In this document: positions 4,461 to 25,362 of the stretch, piece after piece
Layout: every line of letters starts with the position of its first letter
Position numbering within the stretch: the first letter of the stretch is position 1
Source of the DNA: a virus
Strand: one strand, 5' to 3'
Length of the DNA stretch: 26,982 bases
Virus record (IMG/VR): IMGVR_UViG_3300048927_000124
Span: 1 to 26,982 of that record
The notes under the pieces: generated by a model
Told to the model about the DNA's origin: nothing
Databases searched by the model: none
What the model saw: only the letters and a program-made list of their open reading frames with translations
Made by a program: the position numbers and the translations under genes

Positions 4461-4792
4461 TGCCCAGCTTCCCCGGCAGTCATAGGCCGATGCCCAGGCT
4501 GGCCCCTGTGCACGTTGCCCAAGAGCGCAAAGAGAACTACGGCAACGGGCGAGGCGGTCGTCCGTGGCGGCGTAAGCGCGATGCAGTCATGGCACGAGAC
4601 AAGTACATGTGCCAGCCATGCAGCCGCACAGGGCGCATCACGTTGGCCGACGAGGTGGACCACGTCACCCCACAGGCTGAAGGCGGGACGGATGACGAGG
4701 CCAACCTTCAGGCCATCTGCTTTGAGTGTCACCAACTGAAGACGCTGGCAGAGGCCCGGCGTGGAGTGGCCAAGCCTTCACGTGGAACATAG
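4460..4792 (+). CDS. HNH endonuclease (110 aa)
   Basis: A small zinc-bound HNH nuclease of the packaging-associated type. Two Cys pairs (C51/C54 and C87/C90) frame the HNH core: D67-H68 in EVDHVTP, N82 in EANLQAICFECH, and H91. The length is normal for the phage family. In HK97-like cos phages such an HNH protein sits just before the terminase genes and works with the terminase in cutting DNA at cos; the same arrangement here supports that role. The stop codon TAG 4790-4792 falls inside the first 20-bp iteron of the next feature. Confidence 0.85.
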   Translation: MPSFPGSHRPMPRLAPVHVAQERKENYGNGRGGRPWRRKRDAVMARDKYMCQPCSRTGRITLADEVDHVTPQAEGGTDDEANLQAICFECHQLKTLAEARRGVAKPSRGT

Positions 4793-4866
4793 AACCTGAA
4801 TGTGAAACATGAACGGCAGTCGTGGAACATGAACGGATAATATGAACGTGGAACATGAACGGGGGG
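4781..4866 (+). repeat. Four 20-bp iterons before terminase; candidate packaging (cosB-like) site
   Basis: Units begin at 4781, 4801, 4821 and 4847. The first three are exactly tandem at 20 bp, two DNA helical turns; a 6-bp insert (TATGAA) precedes the fourth. The shared core is GTGGAACATGAAC, with GTGAAACAT in unit 2 and ATAGAAC in unit 1. The rest of the 170-base gap to the terminase holds a G-run and C-runs around AAAAATTT (4861-4894) and an A/T patch, but no gene. Position directly before the small terminase gene, next to an HNH gene, fits binding sites for the small terminase near cos. The half-site GTGGAAC also equals half of a Pseudomonas-type parS palindrome, so host ParB binding is an alternative. 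Confidence 0.75.
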
Positions 4867-4961
4867 GTGGGAAAAATTTCTACCCCTTACCCCCGGACAC
4901 CGGCCGCCCAGCCATTTTTTCACACAGTCAATTCCAACAAACCAGAAATTGAGGTCGAGAG

Positions 4962-5387
4962 ATGCCCCGCCCACGAAAGCCAACGAGCTTGAAGGTGGTG
5001 GCCGGCACGGACAGGCCTGACCGGGCATTCCCGCCCGTGACGGAGCTTCCATTGGTCGCTTACGTTCCCGCCGCTCCCGACTGGCTACCCAACGCACATG
5101 CGATCAAGGAGTGGGAGCGCTTGGCTCCGATCCTTCACGCAAACAAGCTTCTGACTGAAGCAGGCCTATCCACGCTGGGAATGCTCTGCGCACTCCACGG
5201 GAAGATCGTCCAGCTATACGCCGCCGGTGAGTCCCCGGTTGCTTCGATGGTCGCGCAACACCGCGCGCTCTCGAACGACTTTGGGCTGACCCCGGCTGCC
5301 CAAGGAAAGGTGAGGCCGAATGGCGACACTGAAAAGCCGGGGAACGCCTTCGCGGCGCTCGGCAAGCCAGCCGGACGATCCGCCTAG
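4962..5387 (+). CDS. terS: Terminase small subunit, P27 family
   Basis: Recognises the phage DNA packaging site and loads the large terminase. The N-terminus MPRPRKPTSLKVVAGTDRPD is the hallmark of the P27 family, followed by a helical region (KEWERLAPILHANKLLTEAG) that builds the oligomer and a variable C-terminal tail. Its 141 residues are in the usual range. GAGG a few bases upstream supports ATG 4962. Its 3' end overlaps the large terminase gene by 68 bases, so the two are strongly coupled. The 20-bp iterons just upstream are likely targets. Confidence 0.9.
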   Translation: MPRPRKPTSLKVVAGTDRPDRAFPPVTELPLVAYVPAAPDWLPNAHAIKEWERLAPILHANKLLTEAGLSTLGMLCALHGKIVQLYAAGESPVASMVAQHRALSNDFGLTPAAQGKVRPNGDTEKPGNAFAALGKPAGRSA

Positions 5388-7065
5388 CGATTTCGTGTCG
5401 ATCGCGCTGGAGTACGCGCGATTGGCGGCCGCTAATAAGGGCGGTCAGTTTGGAAGGCTGATCCAGTTTGCGGCGAAGCGGTTCCTGGTCGACCTGAAGC
5501 GTGCGGAGAAGGAGGACGGCCCTTTTTGGTTCTCCCCTGAACATGCCAACCACGCATGCGGGTGGATCGAGCTTCTGCCACACGTTGAGGGGACGTGGGA
5601 CACGCCAGAGATCAAGTTGCACCCATCTCATGTGTGGTTCGTAGTGCAGTTGTTCGGGTTCCGGAAAGATGACGGAACACGGCGATTCACATCGGCTCTG
5701 TTCGCGGTGGCGCGCAAGAACGCCAAGTCAACCTTGGCTGCGGCGATCTTGCTGTACTGCCAATGCTGTGAGGACGAAGAGGGCGCCCAAGTCATCTCGG
5801 CGGCGACCACTGGCAGCCAGGCACGGATCATCTTCAACGTCGCGAAGCGGATGGCGGAGAAGAAGGCGGACTTGCGCGATGCCTATGGGCTGGAGTGCTG
5901 GGCAAACGCGATAAGCCGGGTCGAGACTGGGTCGACGTTCAAGCCGATCAACGCCAAGGCCTCGACGCAGGACGGTCTAAACCCGTCCCACGTCGGCCTC
6001 GACGAGATCCACGCACACAAGACGCCGGATCTTCTGAACGTTCTACAGTCGGCGGCTGGCGCAAGGCGCAATCCGCTCTGGCTGTTCACCACAACGGAAG
6101 GGTACTCAAATCCTGGGCCATGGGCTGAGATCAGGCAGTTCGCTACGCAGCTCCTAGAGGGCGTGTTTGGCGAAACGGCAGACCACTTCCTGGCGATCTT
6201 CTTCGCGATCGACCAGGACGACGGGGATTTTGACGAGAAGGCTTGGCACAAGGCCAACCCGCTTATGGATGTCAATCCGCACTTGCTCGCCGCCATCCGC
6301 AAGGAGGCGATTGAAGCCAAGGCGATGCCGTCCAAGTTGGCCGAGTTCCAGATCAAGCGCTTGAACCGCCCTGCAGCAGCGGCGAACGGCTTCATCTTGT
6401 TGCCGAAATGGAACGAGTGCAGCGGCAAGGTGGACCTAGAAGCACTCAAGGACGTGCCCTGCTGGGGCGGGCTAGACCTTGCCAGCACGCGGGACCTTAC
6501 GTCTTTGCGGCTGGTATGGCGTGTGGACGACAAGATCATTACGTGGGGGCGCCGCTGGGTTCCGGAGTCGGCCGTGATGCAGCGCACCGAGCGCGGCACG
6601 GTTCCTTATGCCGGATGGGTTGCCGCGGGGCTCATAGAGCGGACCGAAGGCGAGGTGACCGACTACGCCGTGATTGAGCAGGCGGTGTTGGATGTGCGTG
6701 ATCGCTTCAATCTGCAGTCGCTTGCATTTGATCGATGGAACGCGACCGAGATGATTAGCCGTCTAGTAGCCGCTGATGTGCCGCTGGTGGAGTTCATTCA
6801 AGGCCCAAAGTCCTACCACCCGGCGATGAGCGAGTTGGAGCGGGCCTACATCGGGAAGCGCTTGGTACATGACGACGATCCGGTGTTGGCCTGGTGTGCA
6901 GCGAACCTGATCGCACGCAAGGACGTGAATTTGAACATGGCCCCTGACAAGCGCAAGTCGCCGGACAAGATCGACGACATGACGGCGCTCCTGATGGCGA
7001 TCGGAATCAGCATCAACACCGAAGAGCCGAGCAACAAGAAACTCATCCTGATGACTCTTGGATAG
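5320..7065 (+). CDS. terL: Terminase large subunit, HK97-type
   Basis: ATPase and nuclease that pumps DNA into the prohead and cuts it. Residues 130-138 VARKNAKST form the deviant Walker A (Lys136), and 225-231 VGLDEIH the Walker B with catalytic Glu229. The C-terminal RNase H-like nuclease shows GGLDLAS (Asp386), AFDRWN (Asp471) and DKIDDMTAL (Asp552/Asp553). At 581 residues it is full length. ATG 5320 lies inside terS after GAGG; GTG 5395 is a later alternative, with a poor ribosome site. The HK97-type large subunit with P27 TerS and HNH points to cos packaging. Confidence 0.95.
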   Translation: MATLKSRGTPSRRSASQPDDPPSDFVSIALEYARLAAANKGGQFGRLIQFAAKRFLVDLKRAEKEDGPFWFSPEHANHACGWIELLPHVEGTWDTPEIKLHPSHVWFVVQLFGFRKDDGTRRFTSALFAVARKNAKSTLAAAILLYCQCCEDEEGAQVISAATTGSQARIIFNVAKRMAEKKADLRDAYGLECWANAISRVETGSTFKPINAKASTQDGLNPSHVGLDEIHAHKTPDLLNVLQSAAGARRNPLWLFTTTEGYSNPGPWAEIRQFATQLLEGVFGETADHFLAIFFAIDQDDGDFDEKAWHKANPLMDVNPHLLAAIRKEAIEAKAMPSKLAEFQIKRLNRPAAAANGFILLPKWNECSGKVDLEALKDVPCWGGLDLASTRDLTSLRLVWRVDDKIITWGRRWVPESAVMQRTERGTVPYAGWVAAGLIERTEGEVTDYAVIEQAVLDVRDRFNLQSLAFDRWNATEMISRLVAADVPLVEFIQGPKSYHPAMSELERAYIGKRLVHDDDPVLAWCAANLIARKDVNLNMAPDKRKSPDKIDDMTALLMAIGISINTEEPSNKKLILMTLG

Positions 7066-7068
7066 AAG

Positions 7069-7638
7069 ATGAAGACTGAAAACCGTGCCTACAGCCTCCT
7101 AGAGGTGAAGAGCTACGACGACGACCAGCGGGTCATCACTGGGTGGGCAACCACACCGGAACCAGACCGGATGGGCGACATCGTGGAGCCGTTAGGCGCA
7201 AAGTTTGCCGCCGAGCTGCCGTTGCTGTGGCAGCACCGCCACGACAGCCCGGTCGGTGTCGTGAAGTTCGGAAAGCCGACAGCCAAGGGCATTCCGTTCG
7301 CCGCGAGCGTCGCGAGGATCGAAACACCTGGCGTGCTGAAGGATCTGGTTGATCTGGCCTGGCAATCGGTTAAGGAGAAGCTGGTCCGCGGCGTGTCGAT
7401 CGGCTTCCGTGCGCTGGAATACAGCTTCATGGAGAGTGGCGGTATCCGCTTCACCGAGGTCGAAATCTACGAGCTGTCCCTGGTCACGATCCCGGCCAAC
7501 GCCGCGGCGACCATCCAGAGCATCAAGGCCATGGACACCGGCGCGCGACGCCCGGCGAACTATGGCGTCCCCCTCATCCAGCGCCAGGCGGCACCGGTCG
7601 AGCGACCTGCTGGCGGCGCGGTGAAGTTGCTGCACTGA
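7069..7638 (+). CDS. Prohead maturation protease, HK97 (S78) family
   Basis: Serine protease that trims the scaffolding domain from the capsid protein during prohead maturation. Catalytic His56 is in LLWQHRHDSPVG, and Ser110 in RGVSIGF is the nucleophile. The following segment IYELSLVTIPANAAA carries the conserved Glu and the typical strand. The N-terminal GWATTPEPDRMGDIVEP is also family-typical. Length (189 aa) is normal. It starts 3 bases after terL and precedes the capsid gene, its substrate. Confidence 0.92.
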   Translation: MKTENRAYSLLEVKSYDDDQRVITGWATTPEPDRMGDIVEPLGAKFAAELPLLWQHRHDSPVGVVKFGKPTAKGIPFAASVARIETPGVLKDLVDLAWQSVKEKLVRGVSIGFRALEYSFMESGGIRFTEVEIYELSLVTIPANAAATIQSIKAMDTGARRPANYGVPLIQRQAAPVERPAGGAVKLLH

Positions 7639-7644
7639 AGCACC

Positions 7645-7715
7645 GGGCCGCAAGGCCCAGCGGGGTGGAACCCGCTTCCCAATCTTGCAGGCACTGCCCG
7701 GCGTGGAACCCGGGC
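7645..7715 (+). promoter_or_regulatory. Three tandem hairpins in the capsid gene leader
   Basis: The 104-base gap before the capsid gene holds three successive perfect stems: 7645-7649/7654-7658 with a GCAA (GNRA) loop, 7659-7664/7671-7676 with loop GTGGAA, and 7696-7701/7710-7715 whose loop also contains GTGGAA. No U-run follows, so they are not classical terminators. They may protect or punctuate the mRNA of the most abundant virion protein. Confidence 0.55.
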
Positions 7716-7742
7716 CGAACGGCTGCGCCATCAGGAAACCTC

Positions 7743-9191
7743 ATGAACATCGCAGAACAGCTGGAAAAGCTCCGCGCCACGCGCGCCGAGCTGGAGAAGA
7801 AGCTCAACACCGTGGTGGAAAAGTCGATGGGCGAGGGCCGCTCGATGAACACCGGCGAGCAGGAAGAGTTTGATGGCGTCAAGGACCAGATCAAGGCGCT
7901 GGACGGCGATATCGAGCGCCTGACCGAGCTGCAGGCGATCCAGGCGCGCTCGGCGGTGCCGGTGACCCAGTTCGCGGCCGAGAACGCGAACCAGCCGGCC
8001 GGCAGCGCCCAGCAGCAGCGTGGCGCGATCCAGATGCGTTCCGCCGAGAAGCTGGAGCCCGGCATCATGTTCGCCCGGCATGCGATGTGCGTGTTCGCGG
8101 CCAAGGGCAACGTCCGTGAGGCGGCGTACATCGCGCGCGAGCGCTTCGGCGCCGAAAACCCGATCGCCAAGGCGCTGGCCTTCTGTGGTTCGCAGAAGAT
8201 GGAGGCGATCCTCCATGCCAACGTGACCAAGGCGACGATCGACGCGGCGACCACGACCGATGCGACCTGGGCGGCGCCCCTGGTGGCGTACAACCAGTAC
8301 ACGGCTGACTTCGTGGAATTCCTGCGGCCGCGCACCATCGTCGGCCGTTTCGGCCAGGATGGCATCCCGGCCATGCGGCGCATCCCGTTCAACGTGCACA
8401 TCCGCGGAGCGACCTCGGGCGGCACGGGCTACTGGGTCGGCCAGGGCAAGGCGAAGCCGGTGACCGCGTTCGGATTCAACGACGCCTACCATGGCTGGTT
8501 CAAGGTCGCCGGCATCACCGTGGCCACCGACGAGCTGATCCGCTTCAGCGATCCCGCGGCGGAGACGCTCTTCCGCGACATGCTCGTGGATGCGCTGGGC
8601 GAACGGATGGATACGGACTTCATCGATCCCGCCTTCGCCGGTGTCGCGAATGTCGCTCCGCCGTCGATCACCAACGGCGTCACGGCGATTCCGTCTTCAG
8701 GCAACACCGCCGCCGACATCCGAGCCGACCTGAATGCCCTGTGGGCCGCGTCCGACGATGCGAACCATGTATTCACCACGCCGGTCTACATCATGCGGGC
8801 ATCAACCGCGCGCGCGGTCTCGTCCCTGGTGAACGCGCTTGGCCAGAAGGAGTTCCCGGCGCTCACCCCGCAGGGCGGCTCGATCGACGGCGTTCCGGTG
8901 ATCGTGTCCAACTACGTGCCGACCGACTCCTCCGGCACCTACGTCTTCCTGGTGGATGCCACCAACATCTACCTGTCCGACGACGGCCAGGCCACGGTCG
9001 ACTTCAGCACCGAAGCGTCGATCCAGATGGTGGACAACCCGACCAACGCGAGCGATCCGGCGACGCCGACGACCCTGGTGTCGATGTTCCAGACCGACAG
9101 CACCGCGATCCGCGCGCATCGCTTCATCAACTGGTCGCGCCGCCGTGACTCGGCGGTCGCCGTGCTGTCCGGCGTCAACTGGGGCCAGTAA
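7743..9191 (+). CDS. Major capsid protein, HK97 fold
   Basis: Forms the icosahedral shell. Residues 1-75 are a heptad-rich helix (AEQLEKLRATRAELEKKL) that matches the delta/scaffolding domain removed by the protease. The HK97 body follows, with family-typical segments such as FIDPAFAGVANVAP, NALWAASDDANHVF and GVPVIVSNYVP, and the C-terminal FQTDSTAIRAHRFINWSRRR. At 482 residues it is full length. ATG 7743 is preceded by AGGAAA; the open frame back to 7665 covers the hairpin leader and is not taken as coding. Confidence 0.93.
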   Translation: MNIAEQLEKLRATRAELEKKLNTVVEKSMGEGRSMNTGEQEEFDGVKDQIKALDGDIERLTELQAIQARSAVPVTQFAAENANQPAGSAQQQRGAIQMRSAEKLEPGIMFARHAMCVFAAKGNVREAAYIARERFGAENPIAKALAFCGSQKMEAILHANVTKATIDAATTTDATWAAPLVAYNQYTADFVEFLRPRTIVGRFGQDGIPAMRRIPFNVHIRGATSGGTGYWVGQGKAKPVTAFGFNDAYHGWFKVAGITVATDELIRFSDPAAETLFRDMLVDALGERMDTDFIDPAFAGVANVAPPSITNGVTAIPSSGNTAADIRADLNALWAASDDANHVFTTPVYIMRASTARAVSSLVNALGQKEFPALTPQGGSIDGVPVIVSNYVPTDSSGTYVFLVDATNIYLSDDGQATVDFSTEASIQMVDNPTNASDPATPTTLVSMFQTDSTAIRAHRFINWSRRRDSAVAVLSGVNWGQ

Positions 9192-12146: not shown

Positions 12147-12487
12147 TGAGCAACGTAGCGGCGGGCGAACTGCGGCACCGGGTGCTGATCCAGCAGCAGG
12201 AGACGACTAGGGACAGCGACGGCGTGTCCCAGACAGCATGGGTGGATGTGGCGGAGGTATGGGCGTCGGTAGAACCGCTGTCGACACGCGAGTTCATCCA
12301 GTCGAGCCAGACCCAGGCCGCGGTGACGGCGCGCATTACCATCCGCTACCGCGCCGGCCTGACGCCTTCGATGCGGATCCTGCACCGCAGCAAGGTCTAC
12401 AACATCGCCGGCCTGCTGCCGGACAAGGCATCTGGGCTGGAGTACATCACCATCCCCGTGTCGGTAGGGGTCAACGACGGCCAATGA
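12146..12487 (+). CDS. Head closure protein (SPP1 gp16 / HK97 gp7-like)
   Basis: Small beta-barrel that seals the connector after packaging. The family pattern is evident: AGELRHRVLIQQQETTRD, DVAEVWASVEPLSTREFI, ARITIRYRAGLTPSMRI and the end KVYNIAGLLPD. Its 113 residues are normal. The stop is an ATGA overlap with the start of the first gene of the sugar cassette, so that cassette is translationally coupled to a head gene. Confidence 0.88.
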   Translation: MSNVAAGELRHRVLIQQQETTRDSDGVSQTAWVDVAEVWASVEPLSTREFIQSSQTQAAVTARITIRYRAGLTPSMRILHRSKVYNIAGLLPDKASGLEYITIPVSVGVNDGQ

Positions 12488-12987
12488 TCGAGTTCGACCT
12501 ACTGGGGCCAGGCCCGAGCGCATCGGCCAGGCTGGCCGAACGGCTGCGCGGGCGCCGTGTCGGCGTGGTCGGCAACGCCTTCGAGCTGGCGCCGTGGGCT
12601 GAGTTCCTGGCCGCCAGCGACCGGCAGTGGTGGGACAAGTACCCGGAGGCGCGCGAGTTCGCTGGTGAGCGCTATAGCGGTCATCGGATGAGTGGAGTTC
12701 AGCAGCTGTCTGGCGCAGCCACAAACTGGAACAGCGGCGTGCTGGCGCTGGCGGTCGCGGCCCATCTGGGCGCAACGCTGGTGCGCCTGCACGGTTTCGA
12801 CATGCACGGCACGCACTTCTTTGGCGCGTATTCCAACGGACTTACCAACACGGCGCCGGCGCGGCGCGAGGTCCACAAGCAGCAGTTCGCCCAATGGGCG
12901 AGGCACAACCCACACGTCCGGGTGGTGAATTGCACGCCCGGCTCAGCCCTCAGGTGCTTCGAATTCGATGAACAGATTGCCGCTTAA
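12484..12987 (+). CDS. DUF115/sialyltransferase-like glycan enzyme (167 aa)
   Basis: ATG 12484 overlaps the head closure stop by 4 bases; the frame open further upstream is a shadow of that gene. A nucleotide-binding-like start GRRVGVVGNAFELAP (about 24-37), a central NSGVLALAVAAHLGA (83-97) leading into RLHGFDMHGTHFFG (101-114), and a final VRVVNCTPGSALRCFEF match the layout of DUF115/sialyltransferase-like proteins (VGNG motif, NSG helix, GFD strand). Such proteins act on sugars or surface glycans. At 167 residues it is short, so it may be a minimal version. Substrate unknown. It overlaps the methyltransferase by 20 bases. Confidence 0.6.
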   Translation: MIEFDLLGPGPSASARLAERLRGRRVGVVGNAFELAPWAEFLAASDRQWWDKYPEAREFAGERYSGHRMSGVQQLSGAATNWNSGVLALAVAAHLGATLVRLHGFDMHGTHFFGAYSNGLTNTAPARREVHKQQFAQWARHNPHVRVVNCTPGSALRCFEFDEQIAA

Positions 12988-16299: not shown

Positions 16300-18510
16300 A
16301 TGGCAGCAGGTTCCATCGTCATCGATCTGCTGATGCGCACCGGCAGCTTCGTCACCGACACGGATCGGGCGTCGAAGCGGCTGAAGCAGTTCGAGCGGGA
16401 GGCCAAGGACGCTAGTACGGCCATCGGTGCGGCCCTGGCTGCGGCTGCAACCGCGACGGCCGCCATCCTGCAACAGTCCGTCAACACGATGGACGACATC
16501 AGCAAGGCGGCGCAGCGCTCCGGCACTACCACGGAAGAGTTTTCCAAGCTGAGCTATGCCGCCGGCCTGGCCGATGTGGCGATGACCGACTTGCAGACCT
16601 CGCTGGGACGCCTGACGAAGGCTCAGGCTGAAGCGCTCGATCCTGCTTCGCAGCAGGCGAAGATTTTCAAGGCGCTGGGGATTGAGGTGACCGACGCGGC
16701 CGGCAACCTCCGCAGCTCCACGGATGTGTTCAAGGCATTCGCAGACGTTTTCCAAGAGCAGAAGGGATCACCGGAGATTATCGCCGCAGGCCTGAACATC
16801 TTCGGGCGTAGCTTCCAAAACCTCATACCTCTGCTGAAGGATGGCTCCAGAGGACTGAAGGAAGCGGGTGACGAGGCAGAAGCGCTTTTGCAAGTCATCA
16901 GCACCAAGAGTGGCAATGAAGCTGAGGCTTTCAACGACAACCTCAGTCGCATGAAGCTGATCGTGACTGGCGTGGCGAATGCGGTGGCTGGTGATCTCCT
17001 ACCGGACCTCGTGGAGCTACAGGAGAATTTCCTTGATGGAGCTCGCGAGGGCGACAAGCTCCATCGGGTGGCTGACGATGTTGCGAACGTCTTCCGGGTT
17101 CTGGGGGGCGCAATCGAAGCCGTCTCTATTCCGCTGGGCTGGATCGACGACAAGATCCAGGGCACAACCATGGCACTCCAAGGCCTTGCGGAAGTAGCCA
17201 AGGGCGTCATTGGACTGAATTGGGACCAGATCACACGTGGTGCCACGCTTACGTTCCAGAGCACGGGCGATGCTCTTGGACTCCCGGATTTTCTAGACCC
17301 TATGGCGCGTGGTGGGAAGAAGCCATCTGGCGCTGGTTCAGACATGTACTCGGCTGGCGCTGGCGGTGGTCTCGGGTTGTTCGCCAGCAGTGCCGCCGAG
17401 AAAGCTGCGCAGCAAAGGGCTAAGCGCCTACGTGACTCGGCATTTGGACCCCAGGAGAAAAGAAGCAGTTCTGGCGGGAAATCCGAGGCGGAGAAGGACG
17501 CAGAAAAGCTTGCCGCAGCGTACAAGAAAACCAATGAGCAGTTGGAAGAGCAGATCGCGCTAAACGGAAACAACAGCGCGATGGCCAAGCTCGCGTTCGA
17601 GTTGCAGAGCGGCGAGCTTTCGAAGCTTAGTGAGGCTCAGAAGCAGGATCTTACTGAAAAGCAGGCGAAGGTTGATCTTCTGGAGTTGGAGCGCGCCGCA
17701 CAGAAAGAGGTTAACCAGCAATCTGAGGACTACGCCCGCGCAGTTGAAGACCAAGCCAAGTCATTTCAAGCCCATGCCTCTGATCTCCAGTTTGAGATAG
17801 ATTTGCTTGGAAAGAGCAACAAAGAGCGCCAGCGCGAGATCGAACTTCGCTATCTTGGTGTGGGGGCAACTGAGGCCCAGCGCGAGGCCATCGGGCGACT
17901 GTCGGATCAGCTATACGAACAAGGCGAGGCGATGCAGCGCAGCATCGACCTACAGGATGACTTCCGCGATTCGTTCTCAGACGCGGCGAAGGACCTGATC
18001 AGCGGCAGCTCATCGGCCAAAGATGCGTTGCTGGACTTCCTTGATTCCATCAACGACCGCCTAGCCCGCATGGTGGCTGACGGCTGGGCCGACAAGCTGT
18101 TTGGCAAGCAAGGCGAGAACGGAGGCGGTGCGGTTGGAGGATGGCTGTCTTCGTTCGCCGGCTCTTTCAGCGGCAAGGGTGGTGCAGCGTCGGGCGCTTC
18201 ACAGGGCGGCGGATGGATCGACACAATCCTCGGCGCCTTCGGCGGAGCGAAGGCCAGCGGCGGCGACATTCTCGGCAGCCGCGCCTATCTCGTCGGCGAG
18301 GATGGCCCGGAGATGTTCGTGCCCAGGACTGCAGGCCGCGTCTACACGGCTCCGCAGACGCAGGCAATTACGGCAGGTCACGGCAGTCGTGGACTCACGC
18401 AGATCAACAACTTCAACACGCAGGGGCGGCTCGATCGTAGGTCGAAGCAGCAAATCGCCGCAGACGTAGGCCGCAAGGCGAATGCCGCAACTTCTCGGGG
18501 TATCGGCTGA
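16300..18510 (+). CDS. Tail tape measure protein (736 aa)
   Basis: Sets tail length and takes part in DNA passage. It has a lambda-type N-terminus (RASKRLKQFEREAKDASTAI), an Ala-rich hydrophobic stretch at about 43-60, long helical coiled regions at about 390-560 (AEKDAEKLAAAYKKTNEQL), and the family C-terminus SRAYLVGEDGPEMFVPRTAG followed by a flexible tail. At about 0.15 nm per residue, 736 residues predict a tail near 110 nm. It directly follows the G/GT genes. Codon choice in the middle (17480-17850) is somewhat less GC-rich than its flanks. Confidence 0.92.
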   Translation: MAAGSIVIDLLMRTGSFVTDTDRASKRLKQFEREAKDASTAIGAALAAAATATAAILQQSVNTMDDISKAAQRSGTTTEEFSKLSYAAGLADVAMTDLQTSLGRLTKAQAEALDPASQQAKIFKALGIEVTDAAGNLRSSTDVFKAFADVFQEQKGSPEIIAAGLNIFGRSFQNLIPLLKDGSRGLKEAGDEAEALLQVISTKSGNEAEAFNDNLSRMKLIVTGVANAVAGDLLPDLVELQENFLDGAREGDKLHRVADDVANVFRVLGGAIEAVSIPLGWIDDKIQGTTMALQGLAEVAKGVIGLNWDQITRGATLTFQSTGDALGLPDFLDPMARGGKKPSGAGSDMYSAGAGGGLGLFASSAAEKAAQQRAKRLRDSAFGPQEKRSSSGGKSEAEKDAEKLAAAYKKTNEQLEEQIALNGNNSAMAKLAFELQSGELSKLSEAQKQDLTEKQAKVDLLELERAAQKEVNQQSEDYARAVEDQAKSFQAHASDLQFEIDLLGKSNKERQREIELRYLGVGATEAQREAIGRLSDQLYEQGEAMQRSIDLQDDFRDSFSDAAKDLISGSSSAKDALLDFLDSINDRLARMVADGWADKLFGKQGENGGGAVGGWLSSFAGSFSGKGGAASGASQGGGWIDTILGAFGGAKASGGDILGSRAYLVGEDGPEMFVPRTAGRVYTAPQTQAITAGHGSRGLTQINNFNTQGRLDRRSKQQIAADVGRKANAATSRGIG

Positions 18511-19109
18511 TGGCGTACTTGGATGCCTACCTGCCGCCGTGCCCGGGCTACGGATTCGAGGGCGGCCCCAACTTCTCGACGCGGATTGTGGAGATGGCCA
18601 ACGGCCGCGAGCGCCGCAACGCCGACTGGAGTATCGCGCGGCACAGCTACACGGCGCCGTTCCTCAACATCTCGAAGGAGGCCTATCGAGAGCTGAAGCG
18701 CATGCACATGGTATGCCGCGGGAAGCTGCATTGTTTCCGCTTCAAGGACTACCTCGACTTCCAAGCCGTGAACGAGGTATTCGCGATCGGGGATGGCGTG
18801 CAGACGACCTTCCAGCTCGCGAAGTTCTCCACCATAGACGGCATTTCCTACGAGCGTCCGGTGTATGCGATCGTCTCCGCTGCGGTCACCGATAACGGCG
18901 TCCCGGCATCGCCCGTGGTCGACATGGAGCGAGGGACAGTCACCTTTGCGGTAGCGCCGGCAAACGGCCACGTGTTGCGCTGGTCGGGAGAGTTCGACGT
19001 TTGGGTCCGGTTCGATCAAGACAACCTGCCATTCACGCTGGACAACGTGGACGCGACGAATGGGCAGGTGGAACTTCTGGAAGTGCCTCCGCCGGAAGAA
19101 GAGAGCTGA
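18510..19109 (+). CDS. DUF2460 distal tail protein
   Basis: Part of the tail tip joining the tube to the fibre hub, a place held by lambda gpM/gpL-type proteins. The family pattern is clear: PGYGFEGGPNFSTRIVEMAN, GRERRNADWSIARHSY, GKLHCFRFKDYLDF and AIGDGVQTTFQLAKF. At 199 residues it is normal. It shares one base with the tape measure stop and one with the next start. Confidence 0.88.
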   Translation: MAYLDAYLPPCPGYGFEGGPNFSTRIVEMANGRERRNADWSIARHSYTAPFLNISKEAYRELKRMHMVCRGKLHCFRFKDYLDFQAVNEVFAIGDGVQTTFQLAKFSTIDGISYERPVYAIVSAAVTDNGVPASPVVDMERGTVTFAVAPANGHVLRWSGEFDVWVRFDQDNLPFTLDNVDATNGQVELLEVPPPEEES

Positions 19110-20116
19110 TGCCGCGCAATATCCCCATCGCGCTGCGCTCCCATCTGGCGCAGGACGACACTACCACAACTGTGCTACTGCGCATCGCGTCGGTTAGGCC
19201 TGGCGTCGCGCCCTACGGCGCTGTCATGACCAACAGAGAGTTGGTGTACGACGATGGCGACGGAGCCATCGTCTATTCCCCGATCATCGGCATGCAGCTC
19301 AGCACGATGGCCGCCGGCATGGACATGAGCGTCGACAACGCGGAGGCGGGAGGGCTGCTGCCTGAGTTCGATTTCCCGATCAGCGAGGCCGACATCCGCG
19401 CAGGTGTCTACGACTACGCGCGCTGGGTGGCGTACTTGGTGAACTACGAGGACCTAAGTCAGGGGCATGTCGTGCTGGGCGCAGGCGAGATCGGCCGCGT
19501 CTCGATCAACGACGACGGACTGTCGTTCGTCGAGGAGCTGTTCGGCAAGACCAAGCGCCTGCGACAGTCCGTGGTCGAGCGGGATTCCCTGACCTGCAGG
19601 GCGATCTTCGGCAGCCAGCCCATCGGCACCGGCGGAGGCGTGCCGGAGCAGCGCTTCCCATGCGGGTTCGATGCCACGAGCCTGCTGGTGGCCGGCACCA
19701 TCACCTCGGTGGGGCTGGAGACGAATATCACTTTCACCTCGGCTGACGTGGCCGCAGCGTTCGGCGCTAACGAACTCGCTCCAGGCAAGGTGTACTGGAA
19801 GACAGGACTCAACGCAGGCCGCGATACCGAGATCGAGAGCAACACCGCCGGAGGCGAGGTCACACTTTCGTTCAAGACCGACTATCCAATGCAGGCGGGG
19901 GACACCTTCGACATTCGGCCGGACTGCAACAAGCAATGGGACGACGCAGACCATGGCTGCCTGCGCTGGTGGAGCCTGCAGCGGGTTAACCACTTCCGTG
20001 GCGAGCCGCACATCCCGATCGGTGACGCTGGCCAGCTGAGCGTGCCGGGCGCATCAGTCGGTCCCAGCCTTGGCGGCAATACATCGCAGGAATTCACTGA
20101 GGGCGAGACGGCATGA
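19109..20116 (+). CDS. DUF2163/BR0599-type tail tip protein with four-Cys site
   Basis: ATG 19109 overlaps the preceding stop by one base; the open frame further upstream is a shadow. The N-terminal part (RSHLAQDDTTTTVLLRIASV) and the C-terminal HFRGEPHIPIGDAGQLSVPG mark DUF2163 with the BR0599 C-terminal domain. Cys163, Cys185, Cys273 (in PDCNKQW) and Cys284 (HGCLRWW) are the four family cysteines; lambda gpL, in the same position, uses four Cys for an iron-sulfur cluster. The C185-C273 spacing here is long because a beta-rich segment is inserted. It ends in an ATGA overlap with the NlpC/P60 gene. Confidence 0.88.
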   Translation: MPRNIPIALRSHLAQDDTTTTVLLRIASVRPGVAPYGAVMTNRELVYDDGDGAIVYSPIIGMQLSTMAAGMDMSVDNAEAGGLLPEFDFPISEADIRAGVYDYARWVAYLVNYEDLSQGHVVLGAGEIGRVSINDDGLSFVEELFGKTKRLRQSVVERDSLTCRAIFGSQPIGTGGGVPEQRFPCGFDATSLLVAGTITSVGLETNITFTSADVAAAFGANELAPGKVYWKTGLNAGRDTEIESNTAGGEVTLSFKTDYPMQAGDTFDIRPDCNKQWDDADHGCLRWWSLQRVNHFRGEPHIPIGDAGQLSVPGASVGPSLGGNTSQEFTEGETA

Positions 20117-20544
20117 CGGCACTGGTTGCGGCAGCGCGGGCCTATCTACACGTGCCGTTTCGCCACCGCGGCCGCTCCCGCCGAGGCCTCGACTGCGCTG
20201 GGCTGCTGGTGCTGGCCTGCAGGGACATCGGCAAGCCGATCCCCGACCAGCGCCACTACGGCCGCGAGCCGTTCAACGATGGGCTGGTGGAAGCCGGAAC
20301 GCGCGCGTTCGGCCAGCCCATCGCCGTCGGGCAGGTGCCTGCTGAGTTCCTGCGCGCCGGCGACGTGCTGCTGCTGCGCTTCGACATCAACCCGCACCAC
20401 GTGGCCATCGTGGCCGACCACCCACTGGGCGGCCTGAGCATCATCCACGCGAACGCGGACGCCACCCAGCGAGGCCTTGTCGTCGAGCAGCGCCTCGATG
20501 CGCTCTGGCTCTCACGCATCACCCACGTCTTTCGGACCACCTGA
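20113..20544 (+). CDS. NlpC/P60 peptidase of the tail tip (lambda gpK-like)
   Basis: Cysteine peptidase thought to act on peptidoglycan crosslinks or to mature the tip during assembly. Catalytic Cys28 is in GLDCAGLLVLA, the catalytic His is in NPHHVAIVAD (His95/96), and a third polar position follows in IIHANAD. At 143 residues it is the stand-alone NlpC form without the JAB domain of lambda gpK. It is coupled to both neighbours by 4- and 1-base overlaps. Confidence 0.9.
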   Translation: MTALVAAARAYLHVPFRHRGRSRRGLDCAGLLVLACRDIGKPIPDQRHYGREPFNDGLVEAGTRAFGQPIAVGQVPAEFLRAGDVLLLRFDINPHHVAIVADHPLGGLSIIHANADATQRGLVVEQRLDALWLSRITHVFRTT

Positions 20545-23500
20545 TGGCACGTCAAGTTCTCCCCATCGTCGGTGCGGTGGTCGGCGCCTACTTCGGCAAC
20601 CCAGCGCTGGGCTACGCCGTTGGCGCCGCGATCGGAAACGCCGTCGACCCGCTGGTGGTGCAGGGGCCGAAGATCGGCGACACCGCGATCCAGACCTCGG
20701 CTGAGGGCGCCTATCGCGCGATCGTGTACGGCACGGCGGCCGTCGCCGGGAATCTAATCTGGACCGGCCCGAAGATCATCCGAAAGGAGAAGGAGCAGGC
20801 GGCCAAAGGAGGCGGCCCCGTCACCGAGTACGAGCGACTGTTTCAGTCGTTCGCCATCCGGATTTGCGAGGGGCCGATCAGCGGCATCCTGCGCATCTGG
20901 GAAGACGAGAAGCTGGTCTATGACGTGCGCGAGGGGTCGACGATCCCGGCCGACACCACGAAGTTCGCGAGCCGCTTCGTGCTGCACTTGGGCGGCGAGG
21001 ACCAGCTGCCCGACTCGGAGATCGAGTCGGTCATGGGCATCGGCAACGCGCCGGCCTACCGCGGTAGCGCCTATATCGTCTTCCCGAAGGCCGATCTGAC
21101 CGACCGGCGCGGCAGCATCCCGCAATACCGGTTCGAAGTCGTGTCCAGGGATGCAGACATCACCTGGTCGCCGAAGATCATCTCGCGCAGTGCGTTTTTC
21201 ACCGGCACCCTGGAGGATCTGACGCCACATCCCGATTCCACGTTCGCAACGGTGCGCACGGTGGCGAAGAAGGGAATCGCGCTATCACCCGATGGCCTGA
21301 CGTCTGCCGGCATCTTCGAAGGTGCGCCGTACCTGCGGGCCTTCACATATGACCGCGATTCCGACACCTTTACCCCTCTGACTGTGAGCGGCAGCCTGCC
21401 AAGTTCATCGAATGTTGCCGTACTTTTTTCGCAAGATGGAAAGTGGCTTGCGGTGGCGGGCGAGGGTGCCCCAAAGATCAATGTTTTTCAGGTCACATCC
21501 GCTGGCTTGGTGTTCCATTCTTCTTTGGAGGATGCCAGTAGCGGGAACCCTGTGTTTGCGGCGTTCAGCCCTGCCAATAACGATCTGGCGGTGCTCTTCG
21601 ACACCAACCCAAAGATTCGGATCTACCGCTTCTCTGAAGGGATGCCGGTTTACCGGCTGAATCAATCTCCCGCCTTCTCGACGTTCGTCGATCGGCTGGC
21701 ATGGGAGCCAAATGGTGGACGCATCTGTGCGGGATCCTCCAGTTCGTTCGCCGCCTGGTCGCTCGGGCAGAACCCCATGCAGCCGGCGATTGTGGACGTC
21801 AGCGCTGTTGCTGGCGCGAACTGTCAGCGTGGCCTGCACTGGTCGGGATTCCTAGACTTCATCTACATGGTCGGCATCGGAGTCGGTTCCAACAACCTCA
21901 CGGTGTTCCGTCTGCTCAACGATGGCGACAACCACTACACGATGCAGCGCTATCCCGATCCGGTGCAGGTGCCATTCCTTCCATTCGATTCTGCCCTAAG
22001 CGCGGATCGCCGACACCTTGTAGTTGGCGGCTCAACGGGCACTCCATCGCTCGCGATCTACCGGACCAACCTGATGCAATCGCTCGCGCTCACCAACACG
22101 GCAAGCAGCGGCAGCAACACATCGTTCGCAATCAACGAGGGGTTGAGCGTGGGCTCTGGCACGGCGGTGCCCGGGACGCTCGGCGCCATCGTCGCGGATA
22201 TCGCGGCGCGCTGCGGCATGGATGCCGCAGACGTGGACGTGTCGGAGCTTGAGGACCAGGTGGACGGGTTCGTACTGGCGGGGAGCTACACCGGGGCGTC
22301 TGCGATCAACGCACTGCGCGCACCATACTTCTTCGACGCCAGCGAGTACGACAAGGCGATCCATTTCGTGAAGCGAGGCAAGGCCGTCATCCGGACGCTC
22401 ACGTTCGATGACCTGGTCGACGAGCCGGAATCCGCGACGCGTGAGGATGCGCGCGAGTTCCCCGCCAAGCTGCATCTGGAATACCAAAATTCCATCAGTG
22501 GTTACGAGACGGCCAAGGCGACCAGCTCCCGCAGCAGCACCGACATTCGGGTGACCGGTGAGATCTCAGTCTCGGTGCCTGTGGTGATGGATTCGACCGT
22601 GGCCCAGCAGACGGTGGTAAAACTGCACAAGGTGGCCTGGGCGGATCAAGAGGGAGAGATTCCACTCACAGTCTCGGACAAGCATCTGGACTTGGTTGCG
22701 GCAGACAACGTGGGTCTAGCGTTGCGCGACACGGTGTCACGCTTGCGCATCGAAAAGCTTGAGCATGCGGCGGGCGAGATCAAGCTGACCTGCCGTCACG
22801 ACCGGCAGAGCGCCTACTCGGCGAACGTAACCGGCGTTCCGCTGCCGACGCCTACGCCGCCGCCGAGCAGCATCGTCGGCGCGACGCAGTTGGCGATACT
22901 GGATATCCCGGCGCTGGTGGACATCAACGACCTGGCCAACCCGGTCGAATACGCGGCAATTTCGGGGATCACCGATGCCTGGTTCGGAGCGACGCTCCAG
23001 CGCAGCGTCGACGGGGGCAGCACCTTCGGTACGGTGCTACAGGATCCAGGCGGCACGGTCATGGGGACCCTGGTTCAGGGCGTCGCGGCTGCGAGCGAGT
23101 ATTACCGCGACCGCACCAACCGCGTGGTTGTGGCACTGTCCAATCCCAGCGACGTGCTGGAAGACCTGTCCGAATCGGCGTACCTCAGCGAGGGCGGCGC
23201 GTTCGCGCTTGAGACGCCGGCCGGCGGCTGGGAGATCCTGCAGTACAAGGACGTTGAGGAAGCGAGCGACGGCAACTGGGTGCTGTCCGACCTCCTGCGT
23301 GGACGCCTCAACACGACGCCGAGCGAGCACATGATCGGCGCGCGCTTCGTGCTGCTGTCCGGTGTGAAGCTGGTCAACATCACGAGCGGATTGATCGGTC
23401 AGGTCGTCGTGGATCGCGCCGTCTCGTCGGGTGAAAGCCCGGAGTCGGCGGCTCAACAGTCGCACACCGTCACGGCGCAGTCGCAGCGCGAATGGCCGGT

Positions 23501-23774
23501 GGCGTCGCTTCGGCTATCACGCAGCGGCGGATCGATCATGGCGACGTGGGCCGCGCGCCATCGCTTCGGGACCGAGGTCAACCCGATCGCTTCGATCAAC
23601 TTCCAGGGCTTCCGCGTCACCGCCAACGACGGCGTGTTGCCGCCGATCACCCAGGACACCACAAACCAGTCCATCACTATTGACGCCAGCAGCCTCGGTC
23701 CGTCCGTCGTTGTCAGCGTAGCCGCAATCAACCGCATCACCGGGCCAGGCCCGGCCGTCTCGGAGACGATATGA
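20544..23774 (+). CDS. Large tail-tip (host specificity) protein with inserted beta-propeller-like repeats (1076 aa)
   Basis: Central tail-tip protein of the gpJ/Phage-tail_3 type. It opens with a Gly/Ala-rich hydrophobic start (GAVVGAYFGNPALGYAVGAA) and a conserved domain ending in PQYRFEVVSRD (about 193-203). The usual continuation (GAIVADIAARCGMDAADVDV, then LEDQVDGFVL) resumes only near residue 546. Between them lie six repeats anchored at residues 247, 295, 341, 387, 433 and 485, each of the form FSxDGxxLAVxGxxxPxIxVF, e.g. LFSQDGKWLAVAGEGAPKI and ALSADRRHLVVGGSTGTPSL, which look like WD40/YVTN-type propeller blades. The third part includes a fibronectin-like C-terminal region. DNA at 21360-21660 is visibly less GC-rich, which hints that the insert was acquired. 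Confidence 0.85.
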   Translation: MARQVLPIVGAVVGAYFGNPALGYAVGAAIGNAVDPLVVQGPKIGDTAIQTSAEGAYRAIVYGTAAVAGNLIWTGPKIIRKEKEQAAKGGGPVTEYERLFQSFAIRICEGPISGILRIWEDEKLVYDVREGSTIPADTTKFASRFVLHLGGEDQLPDSEIESVMGIGNAPAYRGSAYIVFPKADLTDRRGSIPQYRFEVVSRDADITWSPKIISRSAFFTGTLEDLTPHPDSTFATVRTVAKKGIALSPDGLTSAGIFEGAPYLRAFTYDRDSDTFTPLTVSGSLPSSSNVAVLFSQDGKWLAVAGEGAPKINVFQVTSAGLVFHSSLEDASSGNPVFAAFSPANNDLAVLFDTNPKIRIYRFSEGMPVYRLNQSPAFSTFVDRLAWEPNGGRICAGSSSSFAAWSLGQNPMQPAIVDVSAVAGANCQRGLHWSGFLDFIYMVGIGVGSNNLTVFRLLNDGDNHYTMQRYPDPVQVPFLPFDSALSADRRHLVVGGSTGTPSLAIYRTNLMQSLALTNTASSGSNTSFAINEGLSVGSGTAVPGTLGAIVADIAARCGMDAADVDVSELEDQVDGFVLAGSYTGASAINALRAPYFFDASEYDKAIHFVKRGKAVIRTLTFDDLVDEPESATREDAREFPAKLHLEYQNSISGYETAKATSSRSSTDIRVTGEISVSVPVVMDSTVAQQTVVKLHKVAWADQEGEIPLTVSDKHLDLVAADNVGLALRDTVSRLRIEKLEHAAGEIKLTCRHDRQSAYSANVTGVPLPTPTPPPSSIVGATQLAILDIPALVDINDLANPVEYAAISGITDAWFGATLQRSVDGGSTFGTVLQDPGGTVMGTLVQGVAAASEYYRDRTNRVVVALSNPSDVLEDLSESAYLSEGGAFALETPAGGWEILQYKDVEEASDGNWVLSDLLRGRLNTTPSEHMIGARFVLLSGVKLVNITSGLIGQVVVDRAVSSGESPESAAQQSHTVTAQSQREWPVASLRLSRSGGSIMATWAARHRFGTEVNPIASINFQGFRVTANDGVLPPITQDTTNQSITIDASSLGPSVVVSVAAINRITGPGPAVSETI

Positions 23775-24535
23775 GCACCCCGATTCTCCCGTTCGAAGTC
23801 TGGGAGCCTGGCACAAACCAGAACAGCATCCCGGCGAACGATAACGCGCTGCGCAGCGAGATCCTCAACGGCTACGTGATCTCGGCCAGCACCACGGCAC
23901 AGCCTGCGAGTCCTGCGGATGGCGCGATCTACATCATCCCAACGAGTGCAACGGGCGCCCAGTGGTCTACCTTCACGGCAAAGGACTTGGCGATCTACCG
24001 CACTGGCACGTGGTATGCCTATGCCCCCGTGAAGGGCATCACCATCAACCTTGCTGGGGTAGTCACCGAGTACGACGGATCCGCCTATGTGCCGGTGAGC
24101 GGTGGTGGAACCGGAGATGTTGTGGGGCCGGCTTCATCGGTGAACGATCAACTGGCAGTATTCGATGGCACCAGTGGCAAGCTGCTGAAGGACGGAGGCA
24201 GAACCATCGCCAGCCTCCGCGCTCCGTCGATCCAGTCGGTGACCAGCGCGGCTACGGTAACTCCGACTTTCCTCAATGACATGATCAAGATCACGGCCCA
24301 AGCGGTGCCGCTGACACTAGCAAATCCGACCGGGACGGCGATCGATGGGTTAGGTATCGTCATCCGAATTAAGGATGACGGCACGGCGCGCGCGATCACC
24401 TATGGGAGCCAATACCGGGCTATCGGTGTAGCGCTCCCGGTGAGCACAACGCCCAGCAAGACTACCTACATTGCCATGATCTACAACAATCAGGACACGA
24501 CCTGGGACGTGATCGCGGTGGGGACACAAGCATGA
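23771..24535 (+). CDS. Tail fibre protein with DUF2793-type domain (254 aa)
   Basis: The N-terminus (STPILPFEVWEPGTNQNSIP, then ANDNALRSEILNG) is the conserved attachment-type start seen after gpJ-like proteins. Residues about 45-90 (PADGAIYIIPTSATGAQW, LAIYRTGTWYAYAPVKG) match DUF2793, a small carbohydrate-binding-type domain. VNDQLAVFDGTSGKLLKDGG and the later beta-rich part are typical of trimeric fibres. It is coupled by an ATGA overlap to gpJ and to the glycine-rich protein that follows. Confidence 0.82.
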   Translation: MSTPILPFEVWEPGTNQNSIPANDNALRSEILNGYVISASTTAQPASPADGAIYIIPTSATGAQWSTFTAKDLAIYRTGTWYAYAPVKGITINLAGVVTEYDGSAYVPVSGGGTGDVVGPASSVNDQLAVFDGTSGKLLKDGGRTIASLRAPSIQSVTSAATVTPTFLNDMIKITAQAVPLTLANPTGTAIDGLGIVIRIKDDGTARAITYGSQYRAIGVALPVSTTPSKTTYIAMIYNNQDTTWDVIAVGTQA

Positions 24536-25362
24536 TGCCATTCAAGGCGATGATGTTGCGTCGGCGCTCCGACGCGCCTCTCTACACATTCACCGCCAGC
24601 GGCACGTGGACATGTCCGACAGCCGGTGATTACGAGGTGCTGATCGTAGGTGGGGGTGGGGGTGGGGGTGGCTACTTCGCTGGTGGTGGTGGTGGTGGCG
24701 GCCAGGTTCGCAAACTTATCAAGTCGCTGGCGCCTGGGAACTACGCTATTGTCGTCGGTGCCGGGGGGGCTGCTGGCACCGCGGCTGAAACTGGAACGGC
24801 ATCGATCGGCGGCAACGGCGCTAACTCGTCATTTGATACCGATGTGGCCCAGGGCGGCGGCGGGGGAGGTGGCGGCTTCGGCGCTAGCCAAACCGCGCCT
24901 ACCGGGAAATGGAATGGCGGAGGCGGTGCAGGTCGACAGAGTCAGCCGGGGGCTGCTGGGTCCGGCGGCTTTTCTGGCGGGGCGGCGGCGGCGGGCAACG
25001 TCACCAATCAAGGCGGTGGTGGTGGTGGCGGCGGCTCTGGCACGGCGGGCGCAACAGGAAGCTTGGAGACTTCGACCGGCGTGGGTGGCGCGGGCATCGC
25101 GGACAGCATCAGCGGCGTATCTGTCATCTATGGGAGCGGTGGTGGCGGCGGCATCGCATCCATCACAACGCGCAGCGGATCGGCTGGTGGTTCTGGCGCA
25201 GGGAATGGCGGCGGTAGCACCGCCAGCGCTGCAACAGCAGGCGGCGCGGCCACTGCAAACCGTGGAGGTGGGGGTGGCGGTGGCGGCGCATTCGGCAGCC
25301 TCTACGCTGCTGGCGGCGCTGGTGGTAGTGGTGTGGTGATAATTCGCGGGCCAATGCTGTAG
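24532..25362 (+). CDS. Glycine-rich tail fibre tip / adhesin (276 aa)
   Basis: Starts in the ATGATG overlap (ATG 24532 or 24535). The N-terminal YTFTASGTWTCPTAGDYEVL leads into a body of at least seven glycine runs (4-8 Gly) separated by variable loops. The same plan, a polyglycine-helix sandwich with variable receptor-binding loops, is known for phage S16 gp38 adhesin and for glycine-rich fibre domains. It ends in a hydrophobic strand, GGSGVVIIRGPML. As the last gene of the tail operon it is the likely receptor-contacting protein. G-run repeats in the DNA may allow slippage or recombination between loops. Confidence 0.8.
   Translation: MMPFKAMMLRRRSDAPLYTFTASGTWTCPTAGDYEVLIVGGGGGGGGYFAGGGGGGGQVRKLIKSLAPGNYAIVVGAGGAAGTAAETGTASIGGNGANSSFDTDVAQGGGGGGGGFGASQTAPTGKWNGGGGAGRQSQPGAAGSGGFSGGAAAAGNVTNQGGGGGGGGSGTAGATGSLETSTGVGGAGIADSISGVSVIYGSGGGGGIASITTRSGSAGGSGAGNGGGSTASAATAGGAATANRGGGGGGGGAFGSLYAAGGAGGSGVVIIRGPML

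Follow-up and report, generated by a model that had tools for sequence, protein, structure and literature searches.

The window analysed here, meaning the whole stretch of 26,982 nucleotides of the IMG/VR virus record IMGVR_UViG_3300048927_000124, carries a set of tail-tip genes on its plus strand. A DNA search among phages returned no near match to the window. The genes considered here, and the parts of the tail-tip protein, are as follows:

18510..19109, plus strand: DUF2460 protein, in the position of RcGTA g12, distal tail (Pfam, 4.7e-50)
19001..20116, plus strand: hub-attachment protein with Gp84_N and BR0599, in the position of RcGTA g13 (Pfam, 1.3e-22 and 2.1e-12)
20113..20544, plus strand: NlpC/P60 peptidase, in the position of RcGTA g14 (Pfam, 3.9e-7)
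20544..23774, plus strand: gene for the GTA-type megatron, or tail-tip hub, of 1076 aa (Pfam, phmmer, PHROG)
20544..21140, plus strand: N-terminal hub part, residues 1-199 (aligned to RcGTA 5-203)
21141..22178, plus strand: slot insert, predicted beta-propeller domain, residues 200-545, borders +/- 5 aa (HMM borders in relatives, AlphaFold2, Foldseek)
22287..22763, plus strand: Phage-tail_3 (PF13550) part of the C-terminal hub, residues 582-740 (Pfam)
23058..23351, plus strand: Rcc01698_C (PF23666) part of the C-terminal hub, residues 839-936 (Pfam)

The Pfam domains of the three genes directly upstream of the megatron (DUF2460, Gp84_N/BR0599, and NLPC_P60) stand in the g12-g13-g14 order of RcGTA. 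This gene order suggests that the DUF2460 product is the distal tail protein, and the true start of the Gp84_N/BR0599 reading frame, given here as listed, probably lies later. Immediately 3' of the megatron, at 23771-24535 and 24532-25362, are genes for a DUF2793 protein and a glycine-rich (Gly_rich_2) protein, both probably of fibre type. In the head/tail gene block, the product of 12238-12984 matched PHROG 4603 (6.7e-28), whose label, alpha-2,3-sialyltransferase, may be a misannotation.

The tail-tip protein had been called gpJ-type in an initial annotation made from the sequence alone. Pfam matched it to Phage-tail_3 (2e-19, 70 bits against a cut-off of 23) and Rcc01698_C (1e-19, 71 bits against a cut-off of 27), its PHROG matches were tail proteins, and a phmmer search of solved structures with the 1076-residue protein found the megatrons of RcGTA (6tba; 1.3e-24) and roseophage R4C (8gtc; 5e-24). 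Judged from these sequence matches, the protein is a GTA-type megatron and not gpJ in the strict sense. It is like the RcGTA megatron Rcc01698/g15 (6tba, 6teh) in hub family, in the gene order distal tail - hub - NlpC/P60 - megatron, and in the position of a slot between the two hub parts; it is like the R4C megatron in hub family and slot. The slot contents differ, as RcGTA has a peripheral domain of ~515 residues with a TIM-barrel and R4C a mannanase-like barrel with a CBM11-like module and no reported propeller, whereas the window protein carries a predicted propeller of ~345 residues.

The RcGTA megatron has been divided into iris/penetration (1-46), adhesin-like (47-229), peripheral (230-744), central (745-984), and fibre-binding (985-1304) domains (PMC7296036), with the 'iris' helices reassigned to the tape measure protein in a newer structure (PMC13420450). 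Residues 5-201 of the window protein (P0001) aligned to RcGTA 5-203 (domain i-Evalue 4.6e-15) and residues 538-967 to RcGTA 758-1185. The N-terminal hub part, which is 45-63% identical in closer relatives, is the counterpart of the RcGTA domains called iris/penetration and adhesin-like. Because the aligned flanks enclose residues 230-744 of RcGTA, the insert occupies the place of the peripheral domain, which in R4C is held by a mannanase-like peripheral domain and an extra carbohydrate-binding module (PMC10276861). What had been taken for an interruption of gpJ is thus a replacement of the peripheral TIM-barrel carried there by RcGTA and R4C, and the hub-type Pfam domains together with the aligned flanks bear out the earlier proposal that a propeller lies inside a tail-tip hub. 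The Pfam model of the TIM-barrel peripheral domain, GTA_TIM (PF13547), was present in RcKai, RcSaxon, and XAJ2 and absent from the window protein. Since slot content varies among proteins that share the hub, we assigned the window protein to the hub family and not to the TIM-barrel owners.

Slot borders were located with hub profiles, one for the N-terminal part (1-201) and one for the C-terminal part (542-1076). In relatives these borders were sharp, with '...PQYRFEV' before the insert and 'L..iVadi..r.gl' after it. The insert, first placed at 21240-22130, proved real but longer, running from about residue 200 to about residue 545 (21141-22178) by comparison with relatives. All six repeat anchors that had been proposed were recovered (247 SPDG, 295 SQDG, 341 SPAN, 387 EPNG, 433 SGFL, and 485 SADR). 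We then compared self-similarity at lags of 38-58 residues with that of 1000 shuffles. Neither the top-50 mean nor the count of high-scoring windows of the insert was reached by any shuffle (0/1000), and its single best window was reached by 4/1000. Both hub flanks were unremarkable in the identical test, the observed values being reached by 54-79 of 1000 shuffles for the C-terminal hub and 166-248 of 1000 for the N-terminal hub.

The insert is also less GC-rich than its flanks, as had been pointed out, by a modest margin (59.1% against 66.3% and 64.7%; third-position GC 70% against 88% and 82%). This dip is not unique, because an equally low GC content occurs in 3.5% of the 1020-nt windows of the record, the lowest lying in the tape-measure gene. 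The slot was lower in GC in 21 of 27 relatives (mean -2.5 points), and the lowering may partly reflect amino-acid composition. We considered the GC content as a sign of recent import and judged it weak, since the slots of most relatives are lower in GC as well.

Modelling of the full-length protein with AlphaFold2 (30 alignment rows; mean pLDDT 68.4) yielded the blade-like four-stranded sheets expected of a propeller, with units starting at ~245, 291, 336, 384, 427, and 483, matching the six anchors. The pLDDT was 65-80 across most of the first four blades and below 50 at 203-242 and 471-544, the insert being supported by two sequences. In the alignment (A5), some residues of C-terminal fragments were misplaced at the N-terminus, which may have lowered model quality. 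A model of the slot alone with one relative (mean pLDDT 54.9, pTM 0.58) contained most blades as in the full-length model plus an extra strand at residues 526-532. The predicted arrangement, all on the plus strand, is:

21162..21269, plus strand: probable outer-strand half closing composite blade 7, residues 207-242 (inferred from repeat arithmetic and L002; pLDDT < 50)
21276..21386, plus strand: blade 1, residues 245-281 (AlphaFold2 strands)
21414..21530, plus strand: blade 2, residues 291-329 (AlphaFold2 strands)
21549..21659, plus strand: blade 3, residues 336-372 (AlphaFold2 strands; the ANAPC4_WD40 match overlaps)
21693..21794, plus strand: blade 4, residues 384-417 (AlphaFold2 strands)
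21822..21950, plus strand: blade 5, residues 427-469 (AlphaFold2 strands, lower confidence)
21990..22103, plus strand: blade 6, residues 483-520 (AlphaFold2 strands, low confidence)
22119..22166, plus strand: probable inner strands of composite blade 7, residues 526-541 (inferred, with the slot-only AlphaFold2 strand 526-532)

Besides phage tail-tip proteins, Foldseek against the PDB returned a long list of propellers with E values of 1e-7 to 1e-9, comprising lactonase/YVTN types (3fgb, 3hfq, 1ri6, 3scy, and 1l0q, the last YVTN) and WD40 proteins; the best E was 1.4e-9 (3fgb), and TM scores to solved propellers were about 0.4-0.65. In Pfam, ANAPC4_WD40 scored 23.9 against a cut-off of 22.9 with the insert alone and fell below the cut-off in the full protein, the Lactonase match of the insert had an E of ~0.1, and the classical WD40 model PF00400 stayed below its cut-off (E 0.05, 14.7 bits against 27). 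Because PF00400 was missed and only ANAPC4_WD40 marginally passed, we filed the insert as a propeller of the WD40/YVTN class and not as a classical WD40 domain. The tandem repeats of ~40-50 residues, the AlphaFold2 blades, the Foldseek matches, and the marginal Pfam match all agree with the WD40/YVTN-type propeller suggested at the outset, and on the basis of these models we take the insert to be one. It is like the YVTN/lactonase/WD40 propellers 3hfq, 1ri6, 3scy, and 1l0q in repeat length and blade pattern, at sequence identities of 12-18%, and unlike them it lies inside a phage tail-tip protein and falls short of the PF00400 model. The six repeats originally counted stand as a minimum: seven blades are probably the better reading, with a composite seventh blade that would close the propeller by pairing both ends. 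This follows from the length of the domain (about 340/48), the extra strand at 526-532, and a like arrangement seen by eye in a relative, L002.

To see what the slot holds elsewhere, viral contigs, named phages, and genomes were surveyed. In genome contigs searched with the hub, a first scan gave no match and a second scan two loci; among 385 genomes of Alphaproteobacteria, the class of one of the loci (L084), 40 had a hub match. The survey yielded 49 inserts (about 45 after same-locus copies), which BLAST single linkage at E 1e-4 divided into 21 groups between which no sequence kinship could be detected, although such groups need not differ in fold and several may be propellers of different sequence. 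The two WD40-like inserts, those of the window and L002, were themselves unlinked at E 1e-4, though classed together by motif and fold. With the L002 insert as query, nothing was matched beyond its own two contigs. The window insert, searched by itself, had no relatives among viral contigs, and its sole match in the phage collection was a distant 718-aa WD40 protein of a podovirus-like record (E 2e-3). In the podovirus-like environmental record MW202701.1 (L005), 5614-7758 encodes a WD40 repeat protein of ~714 aa that is flanked by structural genes and matches the window propeller weakly in several places.

Other members of the family carried quite different domains at the shared borders. GTA_TIM filled the slot of XAJ2, RcKai, RcSaxon, and L099 (E 1e-73 to 1e-155), and L039 had laminin-G (7e-17). 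Asp-box/BNR or sortilin-like inserts, so labelled from weak Pfam scores and motif counts, were found in L004, L008, L009, L015, L019, L044, and L047, with up to 3 Asp-box motifs per insert against ~0.1 expected. Weak Kelch or Reg_prop matches were obtained for phiCbK, Lacusarx, L104, and L110, and many inserts of the sampled relatives had no Pfam match at all. Caulobacter phage phiCbK gp099 and Sphingobium phage Lacusarx LAV_00023, annotated only as tail or hypothetical protein, have the same hub and, at the slot position of the window protein, inserts of ~397 residues with weak Kelch/propeller matches and no detectable sequence relation to the window insert. A propeller in the tip hub, thought unusual at first, is thus no one-off, as predicted Asp-box propellers occupy the slot of related phages. 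In L114 and L119 the hub halves adjoin directly; aligned homologues hence show a block that varies or is missing at shared borders, and the slot domain appears dispensable in some members of the family.

In a further set, comprising Langgrundblatt1 (L087), Sonora (L089), L012, L013, L029, L039, and L074, the megatron is divided at the slot, and the hub halves are on separate ORFs. L012 (3770-8189) has ORFs of 321 and 195 aa between them; in Langgrundblatt1 and Sonora the intervening gene is annotated as tail fibre. In several split megatrons the end of the N-terminal protein consists of short tandem repeats, 'PEALDTAATFESGELREALL' in L012 (~4630-5020), likewise in short tandem repeats in L029 (~4600-5000), and in 'LSHDNYND' units in L074/L076.

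Close pairs of hubs gave a view of how these differences arise. L008 and L019 are 95% identical in both N- and C-terminal hubs and 51% in their inserts, with DNA identity of 83-97% around the slot, 50-65% inside it, and a recovery beyond. Identical codons at same-residue sites amounted to 61% (N), 43% (insert), and 83% (C), differences better explained by the import of a diverged allele than by amino-acid replacement in situ. On the contigs of this pair (L043 and L056), a baseplate island of ~4.8 kb has ~70-97% DNA identity outside the slot; the DNA on either side is unrelated, so that the whole tip module seems to move between phages. In the hub tree, L045, L048, and L050 formed one clade (support 100/100). 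In their inserts, however, L045 is related to L007 (6e-6), a protein placed with L044 by its hub (99/98), and L048/L050 are related to L017, L022, L025, and L034, which sit in other hub clades; the Asp-box label requires at least 3 changes on the same tree. These sequence comparisons support horizontal exchange of the slot domain, in a number of events that is small and undated. The idea of a swap module has thus held up, through the 21 insert groups, the L008/L019 pair, and the discordance with the hub tree.

These observations are consistent with the following mechanism. The N- and C-terminal hub parts would form the trimeric end of the tail tube, and the propeller, probably seven-bladed with its ends paired, would take the place of the TIM-barrel peripheral domain of the megatron. 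Since three megatrons sit at the tail end of RcGTA (PMC7296036), the baseplate should bear three projecting slot domains, and by analogy with the RcGTA and R4C structures the propellers may point sideways. There they would bind a component of the host envelope, which would help the phage to attach in the right orientation ahead of baseplate opening. The slot plausibly accepts many unrelated domains because its two ends would be near each other in the hub, and the domains would be exchanged by recombination as hosts change. We think it fairly likely that the propeller in the peripheral slot binds the host envelope, probably a polysaccharide, in three copies on the baseplate. Host-surface binding is favoured by the position, by the lectin- and mannanase-like domains in the same slot, and by the turnover of slot domains; the authors of the R4C study likewise assigned carbohydrate binding to the peripheral and added domains of the megatron (PMC10276861). 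The slot, filled by quite different domains or by none in related phages and GTAs, therefore has the look of an exchangeable holder for what would be the host-contacting part.

The main rival is that the slot domain is a docking platform for fibres, spikes, or a fibre-binding domain of the phage itself and varies with these partners. In RcGTA a loop of the peripheral domain (591-599) touches the detachable tailspike TspA (PMC13420450), and the domain keeps the fibre-binding domain in position (PMC7296036); propellers are common protein scaffolds, and the DNA identity of L008 and L019 also declines in the genes after the hub. Yet TspA comes off readily, and a tested phage with this type of baseplate lacks a TspA-like complex (PMC13420450), while lectin-like laminin-G and mannanase-like slot domains suit contact with glycans better. 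We regard docking as a real but clearly less probable reading than host-envelope binding.

Less probable by far is that the propeller cuts a surface glycan, as another hydrolase fold in the place of the mannanase-like TIM-barrel. That barrel shows weak similarity to GH113 (E 3e-5 to 4e-8), in R4C it is described as mannanase-like, and the best fold matches of the insert include propellers of the lactonase type, but Pfam gave no glycan-active family for the insert, and its Lactonase match was at the E of ~0.1 noted above. About equally improbable, if not slightly more so, is a spacer or shield without a specific partner: L114 and L119 do manage without an insert, but close relatives whose hubs hardly differ retain a slot domain at full length and of one family, with altered sequence, which suits selection on specificity over bulk. 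As for the fold itself, the moderate model confidence and the PF00400 score leave room for a reading without a propeller, in which the supposed repeats belong to an ordinary hub domain that is conserved. This is very hard to reconcile with the repeat test, the blade pattern, and the Foldseek matches, or with relatives' slots that have no domain in common, and we give it almost no weight.

Another siphophage offers a comparison. In Staphylococcus phage phi11, a beta-propeller is part of the receptor-binding protein Gp45. A paper on this host-recognition device discusses a beta-propeller (PMC4901313); Gp45 is a separate receptor-binding protein, whereas the window propeller is an insert in the central hub. 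Peripheral domains of megatrons, phage propellers, and the swapping of receptor-binding modules are each already known separately. We found no description of slot variability, or of propellers in the slot, in the open-access literature searched. Even in the best-studied GTA, what exactly the peripheral domain of the megatron does has been called unknown (PMC13420450), and the exchange of unrelated domains at one position offers a comparative handle on it; because members without an insert exist, a direct test of slot function is possible. On balance we favour the view that the megatron peripheral position is a general domain-display slot, in which unrelated folds, from TIM-barrels and more than one family of propellers to laminin-G, unknown folds, or no domain at all, are swapped by recombination at one insertion point with conserved borders, in phages and GTAs alike, altering the contacts of the baseplate. 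A broad range of phages and GTAs would then probably have, in the central hub of the tail, a second site of host specificity beside the tail fibres.
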